DNA of 22,220 bases from a virus, in the IMG/VR virus record IMGVR_UViG_3300046520_000332, positions 1 through 22,220 of that record, one strand, 5' to 3'. Shown here piece after piece: positions 1 through 16,860 of the stretch; position 1 is the first letter of the stretch, and each line of letters begins with the position of its first letter. The notes beneath the pieces were generated by a model. It did not search any database, had not been told where the DNA came from, and saw nothing but the letters and a program-made list of their open reading frames with translations. The position numbers and the translations under genes were made by a program.

Positions 1-741
1 TGCGACGTGGTGAGCGACATCGGCGCCGAGACGGTCGACCAGTTGGCCGAGCTGGCCACCGACCTTGGCGTTCCACACCGGCCAGGTGCTGTAGCGTTTG
101 CGGTAGGCCATGGCGTAGTTCGCCCAGGCCTTGAAGGTTTTGCAGGACTGGTCTTTGGGGCCCGGCATGTCGGCGGGAATCTCGACGCGGGGACCGTCAG
201 TGCGATCAACCACCAGCACCAGGTTGCGGGCCGGCTTGTCCGGGCCGTCTTGCAAGTCCTGACTGGTATCCTGACTGGTACCCTGATGATTGGTATCCTG
301 ATTTGTCGGAGATTTTTCCGACCCTTGCTCGGATTTTTCTCCGACCTTGCTCGGATTTTTTTCCGAGGTAGATCGGATTTTTTTCCGACCCTTGTTCGCT
401 GGTGGGGTCGGATATTTTTCCGACCCATCAAGCTTCTGGTTCCACTCGATCGCCTTCTCGGTCAGGCGGAACAGCGTGATGTTCGAGGTGCTGGAAAGCT
501 CAATCAAACCCGCCTCTTCCAAGGCCTTCAGCATGCGGTAAGCAGTGTCTGGCTTGTCAGTGAGCAGCGGCAGCTCCTCAGTGATCTTGGCCTTACTCAG
601 CGCGAAGAAGATCCCGTCGTCAGTCTTGATTGGCTTTGTCCAGCTCGGGCAGCCGTAGACGAAGGCGAACAGCAGGGCTTGCTGAGAATTCAGCCCCCAC
701 TCCAACGCCTTCACCTGATTGATCGTGACGGTGAATTGCAT
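1..741 (-). CDS. Phage O-like replication initiator, partial (C-terminus off the window)
   Basis: This is the likely replication initiator of the phage, by analogy with lambda O. 247 residues are visible, starting MQFTVTINQVKALEWG; the gene runs off the left edge. Residues 1 to about 105 look like a winged-helix DNA-binding domain (ends RLTEKAIEWNQK). Residues about 106-165 are a low-complexity Ser/Glu/Lys/Gln linker encoded by DNA repeats, and a second folded part follows (TFKAWANYAMAYRKRY, about 200-215). The start ATG lies one base after the rha stop, so translation is probably coupled. It is the last visible gene of the leftward PR operon. The origin-like iterons inside its linker strongly support an initiator role. 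I recognise the architecture rather than a named family, so the exact family is uncertain. Confidence 0.75.
   Translation of the reverse strand, partial: MQFTVTINQVKALEWGLNSQQALLFAFVYGCPSWTKPIKTDDGIFFALSKAKITEELPLLTDKPDTAYRMLKALEEAGLIELSSTSNITLFRLTEKAIEWNQKLDGSEKYPTPPANKGRKKIRSTSEKNPSKVGEKSEQGSEKSPTNQDTNHQGTSQDTSQDLQDGPDKPARNLVLVVDRTDGPRVEIPADMPGPKDQSCKTFKAWANYAMAYRKRYSTWPVWNAKVGGQLGQLVDRLGADVAHHVA
258..304. repeat. Short direct repeats next to the iterons
   Basis: Degenerate direct repeats of a CCTGACTGGTAT-type unit occur at 258-269, 270-281 and 282-296 (the last with a 3-bp insertion), with a partial copy at 297-304. They encode a Gln/Asp/Thr/Ser-rich peptide in the O-like linker. They directly adjoin the iteron array, so they may belong to the origin or may simply be protein-linker slippage repeats. 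Confidence 0.6.
305..424. repeat. Five palindromic iterons, candidate phage replication origin
   Basis: Five 18-bp imperfect palindromes of the form nTCGGA-n6-TCCGAn lie at 305-322, 328-345, 350-367, 372-389 and 407-424. An example is GTCGGAGATTTTTCCGAC. Starts are spaced 23, 22, 22 and 35 bp apart, close to whole helical turns for the first four. The centre is always T-rich on the plus strand. They sit inside the linker of the O-like gene, as the lambda origin sits inside O. The function as initiator-binding iterons is inferred. Confidence 0.72.
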
Positions 742-742
742 A

Positions 743-1555
743 TCAGGCCTTCCCGACCAGTTTGGCCAATTCAGGGAAACGATCCACGTACCAGTGAGGC
801 TGTGTCTCGCGGGGGCATTGAGGACTGGTGAGGTTCTTGCCGTAGGCCAGACCCTTCTCAGTCACCGACCAGAAGTCGACCATTTCTTGCTTTGAGTTCT
901 TGCGCTGGAGCTGCTTGAGGAAACCATGGGCCGCCAGCAGTTTGTTAAAGGCTGGTGCGGACGTGCGCAGGTCGAAGTCTTTGATGAGAGCAGTAACGGC
1001 CTTGGTCGGCATGGAGGTGCCGCCAGTTGCATCGGGCGCAGCGTCGACGGCGTAACCAGGCAGGAACTTGGCATCTAGTCCATTGTTGGCGGCGATCTTT
1101 GCCAGCATCATCATCTTGCTTGACGGTGCCGGTTTCAGGAGGCGATCGAAGCACTCCAGAATGGCGAGCTCGCCGACAATCTTTGAGTTGTTGGCGGGAA
1201 GAGCGGCTTGTGCTGCGACAACACGCTCGAGCTCTTGCCAGCGATCCACAAGCTTCGATGTGAACTCCGGCGAGAGCTGAGCGACGATTACGTAGCTGTC
1301 ACGCTCGCAGATGTTGTAGATACGGGTGGCGCGCGCGCGACCAAGTTTGTCCCTGGACCATTCATCCTCAGATTGAGGATGGACCAACCCGCTAGCGGCC
1401 AAGTCCTCAATGGTGCGCTTTACGTTGTCGTGGCGCTTGCCGGTGACATTCGCGATTTCGCGGGAAGACATCGTGCTGCGCGACACGTTTTCAGAATTCG
1501 AAAAACGTGTCGCGACATGGTTCGGGGTATTGCTTGAATTGGGTTGGCTCTGCAT
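743..1555 (-). CDS. rha: Rha-family phage regulatory protein
   Basis: A 270-aa protein. Residues 29-110 match the Rha regulatory domain, with SSREIANVTGKRHDNVKRTI near the start and a segment around YVIVAQLSPEF leading into a WQELE helix. Residues 125-270 form a second domain of the kind found at the C-terminus of phage antirepressors, ending in a segment around SPQCPRETQPHWY. Rha proteins are phage regulators whose expression interferes with growth in some hosts; the exact target here is unknown. ATG 1555 is preferred over ATG 1567 because GAGG sits 6 nt upstream of it while the upstream ATG has no ribosome site. The gene lies between the cII-position gene and the O-like gene, whose start abuts its stop. 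Confidence 0.85.
   Translation of the reverse strand: MQSQPNSSNTPNHVATRFSNSENVSRSTMSSREIANVTGKRHDNVKRTIEDLAASGLVHPQSEDEWSRDKLGRARATRIYNICERDSYVIVAQLSPEFTSKLVDRWQELERVVAAQAALPANNSKIVGELAILECFDRLLKPAPSSKMMMLAKIAANNGLDAKFLPGYAVDAAPDATGGTSMPTKAVTALIKDFDLRTSAPAFNKLLAAHGFLKQLQRKNSKQEMVDFWSVTEKGLAYGKNLTSPQCPRETQPHWYVDRFPELAKLVGKA
1480..1513. repeat. Palindrome inside the rha 5' coding region
   Basis: Arms GCGACACGTTTT (1480-1491) and AAAACGTGTCGC (1502-1513) are perfect inverted repeats around a 10-bp spacer that contains GAATTC. The site falls in codons about 15-25 of rha. It could be an operator for rha or another regulator, or an mRNA hairpin; nothing decides this. Confidence 0.5.
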
Positions 1556-1584
1556 AATCCGCCTCATTGAGTGGTATCGAATTA

Positions 1585-3938: not shown

Positions 3939-3991
3939 TAAATAAAATAATCAATCATTCTAAATTAAGCTATCAGATGGGGCCGAATTTC

Positions 3992-4804
3992 ATGACCGTC
4001 GAAAACGAAGAGCCGAGTGGCGAAAAAATTGGCAGTCCTACTGAGAACCTGGAACCGGTTCGGCCGCCAATGTTTCAAAGACAGCTATTTCCTATCGCTG
4101 TAATGACTACCTACCCCAATGACCAAGGCTCAGCCGATCTCGGCATGATTGGCCTTGCAGCGAACGGCAAAGATTACGCCATCAAAACAGTGCTTGATGG
4201 AAATGGAATGATTCCCGCTTCCGAAGCTTTTTGCTACCAGCTGGCACGACATATATTAATTGGAACACCAGACTTCGATGTAATTGAACTTCACGATGGA
4301 TCTCACGCGTTTGGATCTGCGTGGGAAGGCGGCGTACAAACGCTAAAAAACAAAACCGAGATATTGCGCGTCCTATCGGGCGAAATCCCAATAGTCGGCT
4401 TAAAGTCTTTTTTCAGTAAAGTTTATGCACTCGATCTTTTCGTAAACAATGTCGACCGACACTTTGGAAACTATATATTCAGGCCAAGCTACAGCGGAAA
4501 AATCGGATTAGCATTTGATTTTAGTCGGGCGTGGTTTGCATTCAATCCGTTCGGATATGAAGCCACAGAGGATTGCAATACTTTTGCGGGTATCAATGCA
4601 ATCCGCTATTACGATCAATACGACCGGTCTGAAGCCGAAAAATGTCTTGACAAAATAGAAAACTTGACGGTTGACGATGTAAATACTATTATTTCAAACT
4701 TTCCAGAAGCGTGGATGTCTGAAGAAGATCGCCAGGGGTTCTTGAATTGGTGGGCGTCACACGCCAGAAAGGAACGCATTGAATTTCTTAAGGGAATACT
4801 TTAA
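3992..4804 (+). CDS. HipA-like serine/threonine kinase
   Basis: A 270-aa protein with the active-site landmarks of HipA-fold kinases. These are the ATP-site Lys in DYAIK (K65), a Glu in ASEAF, the catalytic loop VNNVDRHFGN (D155, N160) and the metal-site Asp in AFDFS (D176). It lacks the N-terminal subdomain of classical HipA and has no HipB-type HTH partner next door. The following gene is DUF3037-like, a pairing I recall for short HipA-like kinases. ATG 3992 is preferred because GGGG lies 9 nt upstream; ATG 3977 has no ribosome site. The gene is much richer in A+T than its neighbours, which suggests recent acquisition. It sits where lambda has rexAB. A toxin, exclusion or defence role is inferred. 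Confidence 0.82.
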   Translation: MTVENEEPSGEKIGSPTENLEPVRPPMFQRQLFPIAVMTTYPNDQGSADLGMIGLAANGKDYAIKTVLDGNGMIPASEAFCYQLARHILIGTPDFDVIELHDGSHAFGSAWEGGVQTLKNKTEILRVLSGEIPIVGLKSFFSKVYALDLFVNNVDRHFGNYIFRPSYSGKIGLAFDFSRAWFAFNPFGYEATEDCNTFAGINAIRYYDQYDRSEAEKCLDKIENLTVDDVNTIISNFPEAWMSEEDRQGFLNWWASHARKERIEFLKGIL

Positions 4805-4806
4805 TC

Positions 4807-5634
4807 ATGATCACATATGATTACTCTCTTATAAAATATATGCCGAGCAAAAAGCGCGGAGAAATAGTTAATATCGGAGTTATTGTATTCAACAAGTCCG
4901 GTATTGACTCGCGACTGCTCAGTGGCGCTGCCAAATTGCGCCTCCTCGATGGGGAGTCTTCTATTGATGATATTTCAGAATTTGAATTTCTTCTCGAAGA
5001 AGCAAAAAAAATATGCGCTAGTACTGACGAAATAGTAAAATTCCTTGGCATGTTTAAATGTGCTTTTACATTAAGCGCGAAAGCAAAATTTTCGATTGAT
5101 CACGAAGGCCAATACGAAGCTCAGTTAACAAGATTATTTAACGATCTAGTGAAGCCGTTTAGCGTTAGAGAAACAGTAAGAAAATCTTCTAGGATTCAAA
5201 CATTAGTAAAGCATAAGTTTGAGTCGCTTAATTTACTGGCAAAGAGCGCAGAAGAGCTAAGCTACCACAAGGTGGTACAGAATTATAACTTCAGTGACAA
5301 GTCAGGTTTTTCGGCGGATTTTCTTCTGAAAAACGGGAAATTCCATATCAGCGAAGTTATTGACTATAACGTCAACGACTTATCTGCAAAATTTAAAGAA
5401 ACCACGCTTAAGGTTATGACCTTCATGGAAGGTAAAAAGCACCTCGGGCAAGATTCTGGATGTTACTTTGTCTATTCAGCCTCCGGCTCTATAGAAAAAG
5501 ACATTCAGTCGCACTTGAATCTTGCAGAAGATTACAGCAGTTCAATCTTCAATATCGCATCAAAGCAGGAAGAAAAGTCTTACTTTGATCTTATGTCTAA
5601 GCTTGCAGGTGTAGAGGCGCCAATTTTCCATTGA
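4807..5634 (+). CDS. DUF3037-like protein, partner of the HipA-like kinase
   Basis: A 275-aa protein. Residues 1-50 carry the DUF3037 hallmark: a Tyr-rich start (YDYSLIKYMPSKKRGE) then VNIGVIVFN. DUF3037 members are uncharacterised and often adjoin HipA-like kinases. The C-terminal half (about 175-250: ADFLLKNGKFHISEVIDYNV, later GCYFVYSASG) looks like a separate alpha/beta domain and could be nuclease-like, but no catalytic set is secure. It starts 2 nt after the kinase stop, so the two are co-translated. It is equally AT-rich. A terminator follows 3 nt after its stop, which closes the module as one unit. Whether it is antitoxin, adaptor or substrate of the kinase is unknown. Confidence 0.75.
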   Translation: MITYDYSLIKYMPSKKRGEIVNIGVIVFNKSGIDSRLLSGAAKLRLLDGESSIDDISEFEFLLEEAKKICASTDEIVKFLGMFKCAFTLSAKAKFSIDHEGQYEAQLTRLFNDLVKPFSVRETVRKSSRIQTLVKHKFESLNLLAKSAEELSYHKVVQNYNFSDKSGFSADFLLKNGKFHISEVIDYNVNDLSAKFKETTLKVMTFMEGKKHLGQDSGCYFVYSASGSIEKDIQSHLNLAEDYSSSIFNIASKQEEKSYFDLMSKLAGVEAPIFH

Positions 5635-15054: not shown

Positions 15055-16860
15055 ATGTCCGCAGAACAGAAATTACCCCAGTTCATCAACCGCCAGCCAA
15101 GCATGGGCCTGCCATTCGAAAAAGAACTGGTGGTGGACCTGTTTGCGGGCGGCGGCGGCGCCAGCACTGGTATCGCACGGGCATACCGGGAGCCGGATGT
15201 CGCGGTAAACCACAACCCGATCGCCCTGGCCGTGCATCGCGCCAACCACCCGCAGACGGCGCACTATGTTGCGGACGTGTTCGAGGTCGACCCTGTCCTC
15301 GCCACCGGCGGCCAGCCGGTCGGAATTCTCTGGGCATCGCCAGACTGCCGCCACCACAGCAAGGCCAAGGGCGGTGCGCCGCGTGATCGCAAGGTTCGGG
15401 GGCTCGCATGGGTTGTTGTCCGCTGGGCGCACGCAACCCGGCCGCGCCTGATGTTCCTGGAGAACGTCGAAGAGTTCTGCGACTGGGGACCAGTTGACGA
15501 GGAAGGCCAGCCAATCAAGGCCGAGCGCGGTCGCACCTTCAAATCGTTTATTGCCGCGCTCAGCACCGGGCTACCGGCCGATCACCCCGACATGCCGGAG
15601 ATTCTTGAGTCGATCGGTGAGTTCGTTCCAGTGGAGGCGCTTGTTCGCGGTTTAGGCTACAACGTCGAATGGCGCGAACGCATCGCGGCAAACGCAAACG
15701 CCCCGACAATTCGGAAGCGTCTGTACCTGGTAGCGCGCAGCGACGGAAAGCCGATTGTCTGGCCAGCACCCACGCGCCACAAAGTGCCGACGGCGAAGCA
15801 GCAGCCTTGGCGCACCGCTGCCGAGTGCATCGACTGGAGCAACCTCGGCCGCACGATCTTCCGTGACAAGCCGATGGCACTGAACACCATGCGCCGCGTG
15901 GCCAAGGGCTGCTGGCGGCACGTGCTCACCAGCGCCAAGCCTTTCATTGTCCCGATGCGCGGAACGTCCGAATCGCACACCAGCACCCACGGCACCGACG
16001 AGGCACTGTCGACCATCAGCGCCGGCGGCACGCACCACGCACTGGTACAACCGGTAGCTGCGCCGTTCCTCACCGAGTGTGCCAACGGCTCGTCGCAGCG
16101 CAACTTCAGCGCACAGGAGCCGCTCCGCACTCAGGTTGCCCAGGTGAAGGGTGGGCACTTCGCGCTGGCCGCGGCGAACATGGTGACTTTGCGGAAAGGC
16201 TCAGTTGGAGCAGAAGTGACGGACCCGCTCAACGTGGTGGCCACCAGCACTGGGCACCACGCGGTATCCGCTGCGTTCTTCGAACAGGCGAATGGCGGGT
16301 ATTACAAAGGTGATGGCCGTTCGGCCTACGACCCCATCTCCACCATCTGCCAGTCCGGTGCCAACCAGCGGTTGGTGAATGCCTACCTGGTGAAGTACTA
16401 CGGCAACGAGAAGGACGGCATATCGCTCACCGAGCCGATGCACACCCTGCCGACGAAGGACCGGGTCGCACTGGTTGAGGTGGTGCAGGTGCCGGACACC
16501 CTGACGCCGGAGCAATTGGAAGGCGCCCGCCGTTGCGCCGCGTTCATGCATGAGCATCTACCCGAGCACTTCAAAGACCCGGCTGATCTGGTCATGGTCG
16601 GTGGCCATGTGCTGGTCGACATCACCTTGCGCATGTTGCAGCCACCTGAGCTGAAGGCAGCCCAGGGCTTCGACAAGGACTACATCATCGATCGCGGTCG
16701 CTTCGTCGACCCTGTCACCGGTGCCGAAGAGTGGCGAGACATCAACAAGACGGACCAGGTGCGGCTAATTGGCAACAGCGTCTGTCCGGACGAAGCTGAA
16801 GCTTTGGTCAGTGCCAACGCTGCCGAAATCATCGAGCTTTATCAGCGCCTCGCGGCCTGA
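15055..16860 (+). CDS. DNA (cytosine-5) methyltransferase
   Basis: A 601-aa C5-methyltransferase that transfers methyl groups from S-adenosylmethionine to cytosine in phage DNA. Motif I is VVDLFAGGGGASTGI (residues 26-40), motif IV is ASPDCRHHSKAKG with the catalytic Cys at C98, motif VI is LENVEEF (135-141), motif VIII is IRKRLYLV (219-226), and motif X is LIGNSVCP (571-578). The PDC order, instead of PC, is usual in a branch of phage enzymes. The long middle (about 230-560) holds the target-recognition region. GAGG lies about 7 nt before the ATG. No cognate nuclease is adjacent, so it is an orphan enzyme, probably protecting phage DNA from host restriction. The target sequence cannot be read from the protein. 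Confidence 0.92.
   Translation: MSAEQKLPQFINRQPSMGLPFEKELVVDLFAGGGGASTGIARAYREPDVAVNHNPIALAVHRANHPQTAHYVADVFEVDPVLATGGQPVGILWASPDCRHHSKAKGGAPRDRKVRGLAWVVVRWAHATRPRLMFLENVEEFCDWGPVDEEGQPIKAERGRTFKSFIAALSTGLPADHPDMPEILESIGEFVPVEALVRGLGYNVEWRERIAANANAPTIRKRLYLVARSDGKPIVWPAPTRHKVPTAKQQPWRTAAECIDWSNLGRTIFRDKPMALNTMRRVAKGCWRHVLTSAKPFIVPMRGTSESHTSTHGTDEALSTISAGGTHHALVQPVAAPFLTECANGSSQRNFSAQEPLRTQVAQVKGGHFALAAANMVTLRKGSVGAEVTDPLNVVATSTGHHAVSAAFFEQANGGYYKGDGRSAYDPISTICQSGANQRLVNAYLVKYYGNEKDGISLTEPMHTLPTKDRVALVEVVQVPDTLTPEQLEGARRCAAFMHEHLPEHFKDPADLVMVGGHVLVDITLRMLQPPELKAAQGFDKDYIIDRGRFVDPVTGAEEWRDINKTDQVRLIGNSVCPDEAEALVSANAAEIIELYQRLAA

Follow-up and report, generated by a model that had tools for sequence, protein, structure and literature searches.

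A palindromic iteron array inside an O-like initiator gene as the probable replication origin of temperate phages, and the reuse of its DNA-binding domain in putative origin-directed HNH nucleases

The stretch of DNA analysed here, hereafter the window, comprises 22,220 bases of a virus record from IMG/VR, and its first gene (positions 1–741, minus strand; the 3′ end is cut by the window edge) encodes an O-like replication initiator whose full-length close relatives measure 323–326 aa. A Pfam search with this protein returned no specific family; its PHROG matches comprise phrog_11527 (E 1e-144), phrog_428 (E 3e-8), phrog_391 (E 5e-8), and phrog_678 (E 4e-5), the last three of which are O-like or replication initiation families, and sequence homology to O-like initiators was thus found. 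The homologues are annotated as replication protein or primosomal protein, and the gene has loaders or helicases as neighbours. Note that in the F116 record (NC_006552; locus L087, 6001–7017) the initiator gene is annotated merely as two short fragments, F116p31 and F116p32, which masks the homology. Directly upstream of the initiator lies a pRha/anti-repressor-like gene (743–1567, minus strand; PF09669, E 6e-11, and phrog_63). Elsewhere in the window, a HipA-like kinase (PF20613, just below the cut-off) followed by a DUF3037 gene occupies positions 3977–5634, between repressor and integrase, and a C5-cytosine DNA methylase gene of the prophage is found at 15055–16860.

Residues 1–105 of the initiator (427–741, minus strand) form a predicted winged helix-turn-helix (wHTH) DNA-binding domain, hereafter the N-domain, for which the AlphaFold2 model (pLDDT 90, pTM 0.83) displays a winged helix. 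The nearest PDB fold to this model is 4pt7, 'Structure of initiator' (E 8.5e-4, TM 0.57, rmsd 5.2), with generic wHTH matches close behind, and a PDB search by sequence gave generic matches only; 4pt7 is listed among the S. aureus RepA_N proteins (PMC7145576). The predicted recognition helix (residues 64–76; 514–552, minus strand) was delimited from the model helix, the conserved columns, and covariation: D65 and T66 are invariant, R69 is nearly invariant, and Y68 varies with the iteron described below. At the other end of the gene, positions 1–256 (minus strand) encode the rest of the linker and the start of the C-terminal domain (C-domain), a part that is common to O proteins having other N-domains.

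Between these two parts lie exactly five TCGGA-N6-TCCGA palindromes, all within positions 306–423, with zero further copies in the window. Each of them is exact, as the original prediction of five palindromes inside an O-like gene had claimed: TCGGAGATTTTTCCGA (306–321), TCGGATTTTTCTCCGA (329–344), TCGGATTTTTTTCCGA at both 351–366 and 373–388, and TCGGATATTTTTCCGA (408–423), the first being the closest to the candidate unwinding repeats and the last to the N-domain code, with start-to-start distances of 23, 22, 22, and 35 bp. Dinucleotide-preserving shuffles of the window gave a mean of 0.01 palindromes and a maximum of 1. Counted from the gene start, the palindromes begin at offsets 318, 353, 375, 397, and 420, that is, in reading frames 0, 2, 0, 1, and 0; since they occupy all three frames, they do not encode a repeated peptide. 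In addition, no more than 3 copies ever arose in 200,000 synonymous recodings of this peptide, nor more than 4 when its own codons were permuted 100,000 times; the placement in three frames combined with the recodings shows that selection acts on the DNA. These iterons had been called unfamiliar, which holds for their sequence and not for their palindromic form, given that inverted repeats are also found in lambda, whose 19-bp iterons are imperfect ones (PMC7466680), and in RepA_N systems, where they flank a poly-A tract (PMC7145576). As any DNA palindrome could fold into an RNA hairpin, the repeats might instead act as short mRNA hairpins controlling translation or stability; with stems of only 5 bp, a helical phasing of two turns, an exact sequence kept between phyla beyond what pairing would require, and arms that change with the recognition helix, this explanation can hardly be the right one.

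A second element adjoins the array. On the coding strand, the iterons are followed immediately on their 3′ side by 12/15-bp direct repeats (RRTACYART; 257–305, minus strand) that are conserved at the DNA level. The core TACYAR occurs 494 times in the 80 nt past the last iteron (236 genes) versus 5 times in a control stretch, and when the same residues are compared, T precedes in 479 of 496 cases at the repeats versus 21 of 163 elsewhere in these genes. This sharply different codon choice for the same residues shows that the RRTACYART repeats are a DNA-level element, and we consider them a candidate unwinding element, namely the region that would melt. The AT content beside the iterons is modest, about 57% locally versus 30–40% beyond. 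At the same place, CF63a-type origins carry different 12-bp repeats (CAGAGATTACTT).

Using homologues drawn from phage records, IMG/VR, and bacterial genomes, we found at least two perfect iterons in the gene linker, just behind the N-domain, in 264 of 279 N-domain loci, a count that overstates independence, as the window and its relatives belong mostly to one pseudomonad clade. The lambda logic that had been proposed for this locus, with the origin inside O, is borne out. Elsewhere in 1.63 Mb, no iteron was found. The reverse test, which started from the DNA pattern alone in IMG/VR, gave the same picture: all 80 stretches with two neighbouring copies fall in O genes, 74 of them encode the N-domain with sites 250–600 nt from the gene start, and in the other 6 a gene of this kind is truncated where the locus ends. 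Searching prophages that share the N-domain for the iteron consensus found the pairing in three phyla (Pseudomonadota, Bacteroidota, and Fusobacteriota, the Sebaldella record included), and it holds at about 35–46% N-domain identity in phages of Flavobacterium, Psychrobacter, Mannheimia, and Pseudoalteromonas. The favoured geometry among the relatives is a 6-bp spacer with spacings of 22, 23, or 35 bp; relatives from Parabacteroides and Leptotrichia display altered or partly degenerate sites. Homologues without the repeats, which the original prediction had named as evidence against itself, are accounted for as HNH-fused proteins that are not initiators, as genes in which both the recognition helix and the palindromes have changed, or as loci with degenerate or altered copies. 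A wHTH domain and an array within an early operon would also suit operators for the autoregulation of this gene, whether by the initiator itself or by a different phage regulator, and autoregulation could coexist with origin function. As an explanation instead of an origin, operators seem very improbable to us, since the sites are always in the gene, 250–600 nt from its start and never at a promoter, a second conserved DNA element lies behind them, and the protein belongs to a replication-initiation family whose genes adjoin loaders or helicases.

Comparison of related phages indicates how these parts are exchanged. F116 and CF63a/Atpa001 have almost identical C-domains and unrelated N-domains, and CF63a/Atpa001 carry other palindromic repeats with a 23-bp spacing at the same place as the F116 iterons; PseuP_222 has a third N-domain together with GTGCA/TGCAC repeats at 22–23 bp. 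Since a swap of the N-domain brings a swap of the iterons, the DNA-binding domain and the iterons move together. On a finer scale, four genes (L118, L121, L124, and L345) have K68 instead of Y68, and their iteron arms read CGTGA, AGGGA, or CGGGA with a spacer that is still 6 bp. As this covariation represents at most two events, and the tree allows one, it is suggestive only. A strict code of one residue to one base was considered and rejected, because TCGGA arms persist with N68 and the change to K68 may have arisen only once.

Altogether, the five palindromes are very probably the iterons of a phage replication origin, bound by the N-domain of the initiator. This reading relies on five exact sites where 0.01 is expected and on DNA-level selection across three frames, on the other palindromic repeats that N-domain swaps bring, and on the wHTH model whose nearest PDB match is an initiator; the two-way coupling of protein and iterons (264 of 279 loci and all 80 iteron pairs) likewise supports the candidate origin of the original prediction. 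In the mechanism that we infer, the iterons occupy the linker-coding part of the initiator gene, and the N-terminal winged-helix domain would bind every palindrome, probably in dimeric form, with each half-site receiving one recognition helix. The occupied array, phased at two helical turns, would then melt the adjacent coding-strand repeats (257–305), and the C-domain would recruit the helicase loader, which the next gene encodes. The whole set of N-domain, iterons, and downstream repeats would travel between phages as one module.

Four of the N-domain homologues that lack iterons proved to be fusions with an HNH nuclease. When the HNH part served as query, 47 chimera loci of this kind emerged from IMG/VR, which add to three bacterial loci (chimera loci: L294–L340, L204, L250, L259, and L281). 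The HNH part behind the TCGGA-type domain matches PF01844 (E about 1e-11), and its function is assigned from Pfam matches and conserved motifs. In every case the chimera gene is directly upstream of an O gene, with a 4-nt overlap in nearly all, and sits between the position of the pRha/anti-repressor-like gene and O. The O gene next to the 47 viral and 3 bacterial chimeras has a GTGCA-type N-domain and a C-domain resembling that of the window. An iteron cluster was found in 0 of 23 whole virus records with a chimera (one isolated chance match) versus 22 of 22 with an ordinary O gene. Among 400 genomes of Pseudomonas, the genus of L250, 33 contain an iteron array and 7 a chimera-type HNH match; of these seven, G001 and G003 are the genomes of L250 and L281, four others were read, and G216 (81% identical) was left out. 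A single origin of the chimeras was not supported: many label changes are required on the N-domain tree, and well-supported branches force at least three of these, a pattern that suggests repeated capture or conversion.

The slot upstream of O also holds other combinations. In L543 (1251–2066), a CF63a-type O is preceded by a TCGGA-domain chimera, and L544 has a chimera with an internal domain deletion upstream of a GTGCA-type O, like L335. A GTGCA-like domain fused to HNH lies upstream of a third O type in L341 (2752–3246) and in L542 (1889–2380). In L541 (1578–1997) the HNH is zinc-ribbon-like and the O that follows it is of the TCGGA type, and L539 (2255–2698) carries an HNH gene in the same slot whose domain type is unlike that of the neighbouring O. 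In BcepMigl, the HNH domain resembles the third O type (E 3e-8) and lies upstream of yet another O. In none of L541, L542, L543, L544, and BcepMigl does the nuclease domain match the origin type of its neighbour. A separate arrangement occurs in phage P27 (L537, 2144–3226), where an in-frame HNH domain interrupts the central part of an initiator whose gene immediately precedes that of a DnaB-like helicase.

The chimeras are probably origin-directed nucleases, and the likeliest reading would be a nuclease aimed at rival origins. The autonomous pair of domain and site would have allowed rival phages to reuse the N-domain by fusing it to an HNH nuclease, and the fusion would bind and, as we infer, cut a TCGGA origin while sparing the carrier's own, different origin. 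Inert recombination debris of O genes is a highly unlikely explanation: some copies are indeed broken (L335, L305), whereas dN/dS is 0.067 for the DNA-binding domain and about 0.07 for the HNH part (purifying selection), the recognition helix is retained, the HNH residues are invariant, and the overlap with O persists in nearly all loci. Copies with a decayed look comprise L335 and L544, with an internal deletion of the DNA-binding domain, and L305, in which the catalytic His of HNH is replaced. We hold tentatively, and with some doubt, that the chimeras could be homing or co-conversion genes, whose cut in a resident TCGGA origin would be repaired by copying in both the HNH gene and the alternative origin module. 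Indeed, the chimera begins at the exact position expected for the start of a TCGGA-type O gene, and both share the flanking C-domain, so that an iteron cut could be repaired with the replacing cassette; this account is nevertheless compatible with a weapon and needs identical biochemistry. Returning to nucleases aimed at rival origins, we lean towards a wider proposal in which temperate phages wage origin warfare from the position just before O: it would be occupied by an HNH nuclease with an interchangeable initiator-type domain that never matches the neighbour's origin, and with this nuclease phages would cut or convert rival origin types. If true, origin warfare would account for the frequent swapping of origin modules.

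An earlier description of these iterons or of the HNH chimeras was not found in the open literature, and the original F116 genome paper may mention them. Compared with known systems, the window resembles lambda O and ori-lambda, in which interrupted inverted-repeat iterons lie in the middle of the initiator gene with the unwinding tract beside them, and in which the N-domain binds and the C-domain serves the helicase loader (PMC7466680), as proposed here with modules that swap. The features of the lambda O type seen here are repeats, presumably bound, located in the gene between the N- and C-domains, their inverted form, and their helical phasing. Unlike in lambda, the iteron sequence is unrelated, the adjacent tract consists of 12/15-bp repeats and is not strongly AT-rich, and the helicase partner differs between relatives. 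The second resemblance is to the RepA_N initiators of plasmids and PLE satellites (pSK41, pTZ2162, and PLE RepA), which provide the nearest PDB fold to the N-domain and in which inverted-repeat iterons converge on a poly-A tract and a conserved N-domain is joined to a variable C-domain (PMC7145576), as here. PF06970 (RepA_N) was absent both from the window domain's family matches at E ≤ 1 and from the 25 families listed for 38 members; by this profile the window initiator is not a member, its iterons are RepA_N-like, and its predicted fold may be. Moreover, the PLE origin lies outside repA, unlike the one proposed here, and the hosts here are mainly Gram-negative. What is new is a TCGGA iteron origin within the known lambda O/RepA_N kind, which gives F116-like phages, and many further temperate phages with unannotated initiators, a precise origin that can be tested, and whose natural changes in domain and iterons could expose a recognition code.

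The HNH chimera is likewise new within the origin-directed nucleases, of which ICP1 Odn is a nuclease with a captured initiator DNA-binding domain, used by a lytic phage against a satellite (PMC8263062), and to which recurrent RepA_N-T5orf172 nucleases have been added (PMC10448857). Like Odn, the chimeras join an initiator DNA-binding domain to a nuclease, occur in carriers without a matching origin, so that the carrier's own origin is not the target, and are predicted to bind and cut rival iterons. They differ from Odn by having HNH for T5orf172 and an O-type wHTH for RepA_N, by opposing temperate phage to temperate phage, and by lying in one operon with the carrier's own O gene. Origin-directed nucleases would thus be extended from one arms race between a lytic phage and a satellite to temperate phages with different building blocks, and it becomes testable whether phages exchange their replication genes as modules because their origins come under attack.
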